Assembly: GCF_900141795.1 (NCBI RefSeq)
Contig: NZ_FSRE01000003.1
Coordinates: 248,001 to 312,000, forward strand
Length of the DNA stretch: 64,000 nucleotides
Origin: Sulfurivirga caldicuralii
GTDB lineage: Bacteria > Pseudomonadota > Gammaproteobacteria > Thiomicrospirales > Thiomicrospiraceae
Direction of reading: 5' to 3'
The position numbers were made by a program, and so were the translations under genes. A model generated the notes under the pieces. That model was not told the origin of the DNA. It made no database searches and saw nothing but the letters and a program-made list of their open reading frames with translations. Below, in pieces: positions 61,214 through 64,000 of the stretch; positions within the stretch are counted from its first letter, which is position 1, and each line of letters opens with the position of its first letter.

Positions 61214-61351
61214 ATTTCCACACATACTCTAATAAAAAATTTATTAATACCTGCAGTTCAATAATTTCTATTTAATAAATTTTGTTGATACCTCTATTAT
61301 CTACACTGAAACCCTGACTTTTTTTAATGCGGGCAATAAGGAGTCATTATC

Positions 61352-62719
61352 ATGGAACTGATCAGCCTCTATCCCACCTGGTATGATCCGGCCATGGGAT
61401 CCGGCTACTGGATTGCGCTCATCGCGACGATCCACGTGCTCTTTTCCCATACCTCGGTCGGGGCGGCGATCTTCTTCGCCTATCTGGTAAACAAGGCGTA
61501 TCGCGAAGATCGGCCGGAGCTGCTGGAATTCGTCAAGAAATACGGTATTTTCCTGCTCATTTTCTCCTATGTAATGGGCTCCATCACCGGGCCGGGTATC
61601 TGGTACTCCACCACGGTCGGCTCGCCGAAGGGGATCTCCGCCCTGATTCACTCCTTCGTATGGAAATGGGCAACCGAATGGGTCTTCTTCGTCATTGAGG
61701 TAGTGGGCGTCTATCTGGTGATATACCTGGTCGGCAAGGTGGACAAGCGGACACACACCTATATTGCATTCATCTTCGCCGCGGCATCATATGCCACCAT
61801 GATGCTGATCCTGGGTATCCTCTCCTTCATGATGTGGCCTGGCTCACCAGAGTGGTTCGAGAAAGGCGGCACCTTGTATTCCTTCTTTGGCCAGAACACC
61901 TTTGCCCAATTGATGATCCGCACCGGTTTTGCCATGGCGGTCACTGCAGTAGTGGGCAGCATCATTGCATCCGCCTTCAAGGATGACGCGCTCAAGGATG
62001 AAGTGCTGCGCAAGCTGGCCGGCTTCGGGCTGCTGGGCGTCAGCATTATGATCGGTACCTACTTCTGGTACGTGCAGACCGTTCCCGCCAATGCACTGGA
62101 AGTGATGCATAACCGCATGCCGAGCTGGTTCGCGCCGGCCATCATCGCCACTTTCGGACTGATGCTGCTCTACTTCATCGTCGCCCTGTTCAACACTCGG
62201 CTGCTGACGCCGGTAATTGCCGGGGCGATGGTGGTGGTGATTACCGTGCTGGGTCTGTTCCCGGAAGAGATTACCCGCGAGTCCATGCGCAAGCCTTATG
62301 TGGCCGGGCAGTATGTCTACTCCAACCAGATCATCGCTCGCGACGTTCCGGGCATGGGCATCAAGGCGGAACTGCCCAAGGTAGAGAAATATGGCATTCT
62401 GAAGGTTCACCCTTTCCTGCCGGATAATCTGCGCACCGTGACAGCCGAGAACAAGCTGGCCGTGGGCAAGCAGATCGCCGTGGTGATGTGTTCCAACTGC
62501 CACCAGGTCACCAAAACGGAAGGCATCCGCCCGCTGACCGACTACTTTGGGGGTGAAACCAATGTGGATCGCATCAAGCGTTATCTGAAGGGCACCGTGG
62601 TGGCCGGCAACATCATGTACATGCCGCGCATTCCGCTGAAGGAGGCCGAACTGGACGCACTGGCCACCTATATCGCCCATCTCAATGGCGATAACGCCAA
62701 AACGCTTGCAGCGAAATAA
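61352..62719 (+). CDS. Cytochrome bd-superfamily-like membrane subunit with C-terminal heme c
   Basis: This 455-residue inner-membrane protein has about nine hydrophobic helices. Helix 1 carries two His (IATIHVLFSHTSVGAAIFFAY, about residues 25-45). The next pair has SYVMGSITGPGIWYSTTVG, followed by WKWATEWVFFVIEVVGVYLV with two acidic residues. This is the pattern of CydA helices 1-4, with its heme-ligand His and the E99/E107-type pair, except that the spacing between the Glu residues is one shorter than in E. coli. Near 325 RKPYVAGQYVY stands where CydA has GRQPW. After the last helix a short c-type domain follows with one heme site, CSNCH (about 381-385), and a likely Met ligand in IMYMPRIPL. 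It resembles bd-like oxidoreductases with fused heme c rather than a quinol oxidase. The next gene, 14 bases later, encodes a second bd-like subunit. Confidence 0.78.
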   Translation: MELISLYPTWYDPAMGSGYWIALIATIHVLFSHTSVGAAIFFAYLVNKAYREDRPELLEFVKKYGIFLLIFSYVMGSITGPGIWYSTTVGSPKGISALIHSFVWKWATEWVFFVIEVVGVYLVIYLVGKVDKRTHTYIAFIFAAASYATMMLILGILSFMMWPGSPEWFEKGGTLYSFFGQNTFAQLMIRTGFAMAVTAVVGSIIASAFKDDALKDEVLRKLAGFGLLGVSIMIGTYFWYVQTVPANALEVMHNRMPSWFAPAIIATFGLMLLYFIVALFNTRLLTPVIAGAMVVVITVLGLFPEEITRESMRKPYVAGQYVYSNQIIARDVPGMGIKAELPKVEKYGILKVHPFLPDNLRTVTAENKLAVGKQIAVVMCSNCHQVTKTEGIRPLTDYFGGETNVDRIKRYLKGTVVAGNIMYMPRIPLKEAELDALATYIAHLNGDNAKTLAAK

Positions 62720-62733
62720 GGAGGAACCAAACA

Positions 62734-63957
62734 ATGGATATGAATCCAGCTGCAGTTCATGACATGCTGTATGCCCTGCGGGATCCTGCAGGCCTGCCCT
62801 TCTTCCCGTGGGCATTCTGGGGCGTAGGCATTCTCACCTTCGCCATGCACTTCTTTGCCGTGGCCGTGATGATCGGCGGTGCAGGCGTGGCCCTCTACGG
62901 CGTGCGCCAGGACAACCCCTACTGGCGCAAGCTGGGCTACGCCATGGCCGACGTGAGCAAGATCGCCGTGTCCGTCGCCATCGTGCTGGGCGTGGCGCCC
63001 CTGCTGGCCGTGCAGGTGTATTACGACCCCATGTGGTACACCTCCAACGTGCTCAGCGCCTACTGGGTCATTACCTTCGTGCTGGCGCTGATCGTGGCCT
63101 ACTCACTGCACTATGTGTTCTATTTCCGCAACAAGAAGCGCGAGGGCACGCCCAAGTCGCTGTGGTCACTGGGCGGTGCGCTGCTGGGCTACCTGCTGGT
63201 GGGCTTCATCATGCACAGCCTGGGTTATCAGACCCTGAGCCCGGAAAAGTGGCTGCAGTGGTATGCCCCCAATGGCGTGGTGGACAACAGTGGCACCAAG
63301 CTGCATGACTTCAACGTGATCCGCTATGTGTTCTTTATCCTGCTGAGCGTACCGGTGATCGGCACCTACCTGATGGCTTATGCCACTTACTGGTCCACCC
63401 GCAAGGATCAGGATGCGGCCTACCTTGAGTTCGCCTTTACCCTGGGTCGCAAGCTGGCCATGGTGGGGGCAGCGATTACCACAACACTGGCCATCGTCTA
63501 TCTGGCCACATTGCCCGAGAAACTGCATGCGTTCCAGACCTCCCTCTGGGCTGCGCTGTGGGTCATCGGCGCCCTGCTGCCTGCGCTAGTGGCCTGGCGT
63601 GCCGGCAAGGCCGGGTATCGCTGCGGCTACCGCCCGTTTATCGTGGCCTTTGTGGGCATGCTGCTGATTGCCATCGCCCGGGAAATGCTGCGCTATTATG
63701 CGGTTATCCCCTACTACAACTTCATGGACTACAAGGTGAATCTGGACTGGTTCACCACGGATGTGTTCCTGTTCACCTTCCTGGTACTCGGCTTCTCCAC
63801 TCTGGGTTATCTGCTGACCGTGGTATGGAAAGCCGGCAAGACCGAAGGCGTGTACGAAGCCTCGCCCATCATGCATGTATGGGCTCGCTTCAACATTGGT
63901 CTGATGGTCTTCTGGACCGCAGTCTATTTCCTGCTGATGACCATTCGCAGCTTCTGA
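62734..63957 (+). CDS. Second bd-superfamily-like membrane subunit
   Basis: This 407-residue integral membrane protein has about nine helices. The early segment FWGVGILTFAMHFFAVAVMIGGAGVALYG (about residues 27-55) has a single His in the position of the CydA helix-1 heme ligand. Later parts include SLHYVFYFRNKK, GFIMHSLGYQTLSPEKW, GTYLMAYATYWSTRK and AREMLRYYAVIPYYNFMDYKVNLDWF. It is not a typical CydB and has no CxxCH. I take it as a divergent CydA-like or CydB-like partner of the heme-c subunit upstream. GGAGG precedes the start, and the gene after it starts 13 bases later, so this is an operon of at least three genes. Confidence 0.68.
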   Translation: MDMNPAAVHDMLYALRDPAGLPFFPWAFWGVGILTFAMHFFAVAVMIGGAGVALYGVRQDNPYWRKLGYAMADVSKIAVSVAIVLGVAPLLAVQVYYDPMWYTSNVLSAYWVITFVLALIVAYSLHYVFYFRNKKREGTPKSLWSLGGALLGYLLVGFIMHSLGYQTLSPEKWLQWYAPNGVVDNSGTKLHDFNVIRYVFFILLSVPVIGTYLMAYATYWSTRKDQDAAYLEFAFTLGRKLAMVGAAITTTLAIVYLATLPEKLHAFQTSLWAALWVIGALLPALVAWRAGKAGYRCGYRPFIVAFVGMLLIAIAREMLRYYAVIPYYNFMDYKVNLDWFTTDVFLFTFLVLGFSTLGYLLTVVWKAGKTEGVYEASPIMHVWARFNIGLMVFWTAVYFLLMTIRSF

Positions 63958-63970
63958 GGGAGGGACGAAC

Positions 63971-64000
63971 ATGAAACGGATACTGCTTTTGAACCTGTTG
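63971..64000 (+). CDS. Start of a further gene of the bd-like operon (truncated by window end)
   Basis: Only ten codons are visible (MKRILLLNLL), preceded by GAGGGAGG at a good distance. The start looks like a signal peptide or membrane segment, compatible with an exported cytochrome or accessory subunit, but nothing more can be said. Confidence 0.6.
   Translation, partial: MKRILLLNLL

Follow-up and report, generated by a model that had tools for sequence, protein, structure and literature searches.

The last genes of the window (the 64,000-nucleotide stretch of Sulfurivirga caldicuralii DNA analyzed here) belong to a five-gene operon that extends past its end and, on balance, codes for a sulfide oxidation chain that faces the periplasm and has a membrane oxidase of its own; electrons would run from sulfide to FAD, hemes c, a CydA-like di-heme site, and O2. 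In the proposed route, FccB would take two electrons from sulfide, yielding sulfur or polysulfide, and the electrons would pass through a diheme c4-like partner (FccA-like) and a monoheme cytochrome (c1) to the heme c domain of subunit A at the periplasmic face. From this heme c they would reach a di-heme site held by H28 and E310, where O2 would be reduced, and subunit B, itself of CydA type, would be the partner that takes over the position of CydB. The heme c domain would be the entry that replaces a lost quinol site and heme b558. Judging from the genes, sulfide very probably supplies the electrons via the adjacent flavocytochrome c sulfide dehydrogenase (FCSD), and O2 is most likely the acceptor; the donor assignment is based on the operon and its co-inheritance, and the acceptor assignment on the retained CydA active-site residues and the loss of the quinol site. 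We infer a physical complex, its heme content and topology, the use of O2 as the acceptor, and any proton-motive force. A sequence-only reading of the window had offered O2, nitrogen, or sulfur compounds as substrates, and the rest of the operon narrowed this choice to the donor and acceptor named above.

The five genes (A, B, c1, fccB, and the diheme c4-like gene) are separated by gaps of 14, 13, 15, and 12 bases. Positions past 64000 were obtained from the flanking locus L001, with the window position being the L001 position plus 52000. The features are as follows.

61338..61344, + strand: strong Shine-Dalgarno-like sequence (taaggag) 5' of A
61352..62719, + strand: A, CydA-like membrane protein with a C-terminal heme c domain, 455 aa, 8 predicted TM helices; key residues H28, E109, E116, R190, E310, R313, C380-S-N-C383-H384, and M424
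62734..63957, + strand: B, second CydA-fold subunit, without heme c, 407 aa; H39, E317, and R320
63971..64336 (L001 11971-12336), + strand: c1, exported monoheme cytochrome c, 121 aa, CSACH; only 63971..64000 lie inside the window
Equivalent to 64352-65644 (L001 12352-13644): fccB, 430 aa, with a Tat/twin-arginine-like signal
Equivalent to 65657-66337 (L001 13657-14337): diheme c4-like cytochrome, 226 aa

A and B are located where the sequence-only reading had placed them. The third, exported gene that it had noticed starts at 63971, runs off the window, and encodes c1, and examination of the operon past 64000, which it had proposed, added fccB and the diheme cytochrome gene. A promoter scan returned a single weak site, which is below the number that chance would give, and a clear terminator was not identified.

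The CydA likeness of A was faint in a profile search with its sequence (PF01654, E = 0.062, 12.3 bits) and clear by fold. Orthologues of A matched PF01654 with E-values down to 2e-6, one of them at the cut-off of 26.2 bits, and the A family profile matched that of 14 CydAs at 93.6% with an E-value of 2e-7 (hhalign); the sequence relation between A and CydA is weak but appears real. A search of PDB sequences retrieved no relative of A or B, and a fold search was needed. The model of A (mean pLDDT of 80, below 50 around residues 92-104 and 315-325) matched E. coli CydA with a Z of 26.6 over 305 residues at 3.2 A; each of the ten cytochrome bd entries scored a Z of at least 24. The next structural group for A comprised ACIII and PsrC subunits (Z 15-18; ACIII membrane subunits at 17-18 and PsrC at 14.8), and NrfD-like quinone-linked subunits resembled the fold of A and B at lower Z values (14-18). 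By homology in sequence and in modeled fold, A can be assigned to the CydA superfamily. The placement of both subunits outside this superfamily, named by the sequence-only reading as the result that would speak against it, was checked and not observed (A by PF01654 and hhalign, and both subunits by fold).

H28, E109, E116, R190, E310, R313, P315, and the CxxCH motif were invariant in 73 of 73 A sequences, and M424 was kept in 72. In relatives down to 26% identity, H28, E109, R190, E310, R313, the heme c motif, and M424 were likewise invariant. Chance was excluded for the features of A and B because they are conserved across more than 70 loci. H28 aligned with H19 of CydA and E116 with E107 (hhalign), and the spacing of E310-x-x-R313-x-P315 is that of E445, R448, and P450 in CydA. 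H28 and E310 (with R313) are thus the putative heme-binding equivalents of the active-site ligands H19 and E445 (R448). The sequence-only reading had pointed out an altered acidic pair and RKPYV in the place of GRQPW; the pair is E109/E116 in A, with a spacing of 7 versus 8 for E99/E107 in CydA, and the second segment reads E310-S-M-R313-K-P315, with E, R, and P in register with E445-x-G-R448-Q-P450.

The residues associated with quinol and heme b558 were not retained. The heme b558 histidine (H186 of CydA) is replaced by Arg190 in all 73 sequences, in a register assigned by hand from the helices, and the M393 region of A has no conserved Met or His, which leaves neither heme b558 ligand (H186 or M393) in place. 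The Q-loop with K252/E257 is absent from A, in which five residues connect the helix at 183-206 with that at 212-243. A-B is not a standard bd oxidase, as had been supposed from the sequence alone. These losses also bear on an alternative, which we consider unlikely, in which A-B would deliver FCSD electrons to the quinone pool (or to the other side of the membrane) instead of to O2, as a periplasmic sulfide:quinone route feeding reverse electron transport for CO2 fixation. Such a route would suit the many hosts from genera of sulfur-oxidizing autotrophs, which require electrons of low potential, and in the window's host a cbb3-like oxidase is already available to the cytochrome c pool; however, the quinol site residues and the Q-loop are missing, whereas the ligands of the O2-site di-heme are invariant in the 73 sequences. 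The ACIII and PsrC matches of A, which also favor the quinone route, are far exceeded by the CydA matches (Z 24-27). Of the cytochrome c or quinone link suggested by the sequence-only reading, the former is likely, and the latter is disfavored by the loss of the Q-loop and the heme b558 histidine.

The CSNCH heme site that had been noticed at the C-terminus of A lies in a domain with c-type cytochrome fold matches, in which M424 is the probable distal Met. Given 8 TM helices rather than 9, this domain would be periplasmic if the N-terminus is periplasmic as in CydA. Its top structural match was the NorC-type cytochrome of nitric oxide reductase (Z 6.2), which would be in keeping with A-B using sulfide electrons to reduce another small molecule (nitric oxide or peroxide) as a detoxifier. 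Denitrification occurs in some hosts, and activities toward peroxide and NO are known for bd oxidases; nevertheless, the NorC match is generic, as other c-type cytochromes also scored 5-6, and the conserved operon contains no nitrogen-oxide gene, making a detoxifying role improbable.

The model of B (pLDDT of 88.6) matched CydA with a Z of 24.7 over 343 residues at 4.2 A, in line with the earlier description of B as a second CydA-like subunit. The direct sequence relation of B to CydA was undetectable (only 1.4%, hhalign), and Pfam and NCBIfam searches of B gave chance-level matches only. B matched A at 95.5% at the family level (hhalign), and it reaches the superfamily by sequence only via A. 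CydB also matched, and CydA and CydB share a fold; the sequence-only claim that B has no CydB likeness was therefore too strong. The helix-1 His that it had reported is H39, found together with E317 and R320. Relatives of B kept H39 and R320, and mostly E317, and B may carry hemes of its own.

FccB has the flavoprotein domains of FCSD (FCSD_central PF21706, 1e-38; FCSD-flav_bind PF09242, 3e-7) and matched the FCSD structure 1fcd_A with E = 6e-98. The redox Cys pair is also present, its equivalents Cys193 and Cys370 being invariant in 81 of the 81 FccBs compared. The cytochrome subunit gene expected beside fccB in an FCSD is the diheme c4-like gene, whose product matched cytochrome c4 best (2e-21) and FccA more weakly (3.5e-6 and 6.6e-5). 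The system resembles known FCSDs (FccAB; 1fcd, 3vrd, and 5n1t) in the redox Cys-pair flavoprotein, the Tat-like signal, and the cytochrome partner gene, but the operonic FccBs branch as a clade of their own, half of them lack the covalent-FAD Cys, and they are tied to a bd-like membrane module. At residue 72, the position of this Cys in known FCSDs, the operonic FccBs have Cys (28), Pro (26), or Gly (3), and FAD is probably bound non-covalently in half of the family.

A scan of 84,980 genomes yielded 68 loci, most of them in genera known as sulfur oxidizers; the closest matches to the window genome (1.67 Mb) were Sulfurivirga MAGs with 81-82% protein identity. The gene order A-B-c1-fccB-c4 was found at 45 loci and c1-fccB-A-B-c4 at seven, in relatives of Halothiobacillus and Guyparkeria, and the gene order was incomplete at further loci cut by contig ends. 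fccB was located within 4 kb of A for 55 of 73 A genes, in Gamma-, Beta-, and Alphaproteobacteria. In the A tree, the fccB-linked genes occupied one side of a single branch (94/85; 94% of bootstrap trees), and in the FccB tree, the operonic FccBs formed one clade (99% SH-aLRT) separate from the standalone ones, and a single unlinked FccB, from Hydrogenophilus, fell inside it. In genome G220, 0.5 Mb separates A from fccB, and both still branch as sisters to their respective linked clades with moderate support (85-94). Among 39 relatives, FCSD genes were located within 2.8 kb of A in all 17 genomes with A and anywhere in the genome in six of the 22 without A (p = 2e-6). In a class sample of 369 genomes, FCSD was present in eight of nine genomes with a strong A match and in 124 of the 360 others (p = 0.0015); matches with E >1e-7 covered the heme c domain alone and were left out of the A count. 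Both p-values ignore relatedness and serve only as a guide.

These distributions also bear on whether the operon is a loose sulfur gene cluster, in which FCSD would use soluble cytochromes and the cbb3 oxidase and A-B would have an unrelated job. We consider this rather improbable, as the linkage has a single origin and survives a change in gene order, the operonic FccBs form a separate clade, and even the unlinked A and FccB of G220 occupy matching sister positions. The occurrence of A-B alone in Campylobacterota and elsewhere would fit a loose cluster, as would the finding that FCSD mostly occurs without A-B (132 of the 369 genomes had FCSD, and nine had full-length A).

In Thiomicrorhabdus heinhorstiae, the entire operon is present twice in tandem (L016 5909-16818), with identical A proteins and clearly different fccB copies (46% and 58% identity to the window's fccB), as if one membrane module served two sulfide dehydrogenases. 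Hydrogenophilus has a second c1-fccB-c4 cluster without A-B upstream of its complete operon (L015 4247-6504), and the FccB of this cluster falls in the operonic clade. In a Thiobacillus MAG (L066 2817-3961), the A gene was matched in two pieces, reflecting either a broken gene or a sequencing error.

A heme-copper oxidase was present in 33 of 34 A-bearing genomes, which indicates that the hosts probably respire O2; the exception was a Campylobacteraceae MAG with a canonical CydA. In the window genome, no CydA was found above the PF01654 cut-off, and the only other O2 reductase found was one heme-copper oxidase, cbb3-like by sequence, which could be an alternative taker of FCSD electrons. We tentatively suggest, as a possibility held with less confidence than the sulfide-to-O2 chain itself, that FCSD, the two periplasmic cytochromes, and a copper-free two-CydA-type oxidase form one sulfide:O2 complex that would bypass the quinone and general cytochrome c pools.

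A functional analogue, taking electrons from sulfide to O2 in one assembly, is the sulfide-to-oxygen supercomplex of Aquifex aeolicus, in which a quinone-linked SQR is joined to a heme-copper oxidase. The operon would instead combine FCSD with a bd-like module. The ba3 oxidase of Aquifex aeolicus has been described (PMC3128077). Canonical bd (CydAB, qOR1) shares with A-B the fold of both subunits, the helix-1 His, the E-x-x-R-x-P motif, and the E107 equivalent, whereas A-B lacks the heme b558 His, the Q-loop, and CydB, has an added heme c, and has 8 predicted TM helices in A versus 9.

OR-C enzymes, in the account of Murali, Gennis, and Hemp (2021), reportedly combine a CydA core, which keeps two ligands of active-site hemes, with a heme c domain expected to accept electrons from cytochrome c, and have no quinol site. 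Compared by description only, A is alike in its CydA core with the equivalents of the two active-site ligands, its heme c domain, and its lack of a quinol site, and A-B resembles the OR-C branch as the family is described. PMC13189123 divides the bd superfamily into qOR, OR-C, and OR-N, and the excerpts consulted of it and of PMC10839748 mention no coupling of OR-C to an FCSD operon. For the OR-N/CydAA'-type of Nitrospira and Nitrospinota, PMC10839748 and PMC12324825 propose two CydA-type subunits, loss of the quinol site, and a cytochrome c donor, and read the retained active site together with the lost quinol site as cytochrome c-fed O2 reduction, which is experimentally unproven; the electron donors are likewise proposed without experimental proof (PMC10839748). 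A-B has two CydA-type subunits and a likely cytochrome c donor, as proposed for OR-N, and likewise lacks the quinol site. It differs in the heme c domain that A carries and in the sulfide dehydrogenase encoded in the operon. In a comparison with a single OR-N-like sequence (L106), the sequence link to A was undetectable. This protein (L106 1255-3072, 606 aa) and another (L105 592-3009, 806 aa) are large CydA-like proteins of two Pseudomonadota genomes that pass PF01654 (about 1e-18), have no CxxCH motif, and are possibly of the OR-N type. A further PF01654 match (L107), a transporter-like gene, was judged to be a chance match.

A survey of the fccAB context in Thioalkalivibrio reported that the surrounding genes were not conserved in the sulfur oxidizers compared (PMC6382920), and our search of one open-access collection retrieved no link between FCSD and bd. 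The FCSD coupling of a bd-like module thus appears new, and a dedicated sulfide-to-oxygen route appears undescribed so far. The operon would name the electron donor for a quinol-less bd branch, for which donors have so far only been proposed, and the question becomes testable in sulfur-oxidizer isolates with the operon (Thiomicrorhabdus, Thiothrix, Guyparkeria, and Thiomonas). FCSD, whose acceptor is usually written just as cytochrome c, would gain a dedicated membrane partner.

A-B also occurs outside the FCSD clade: alone in Campylobacterota; with a c4-like or another cytochrome c in G220, G218, and Achromatium; and on plasmids of Methylosinus, Thermus, and Agrobacterium. As A-B is found elsewhere without FCSD, sulfide is not the sole possible electron source, and these occurrences mark the module as a general unit linked to cytochrome c, of which the FCSD operon is one specialized clade. 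Public annotation hides the system, as the names given in the plasmid records of relatives are "cytochrome c" or "c-type cytochrome" for A and "hypothetical protein" or "cytochrome C" for B.

Metal-related genes were observed near some A-B genes. In a raw count, ZnuA (zinc uptake) or CobW genes were located within approximately 10 kb of A-B at six of 76 loci from distant lineages (L001 16915-18575, L012, L019, L063, L140, and L163), and A-B of Methylosinus (L162) is near methanobactin genes and feoB. A-B perhaps serves as a copper-free oxidase under metal limitation.
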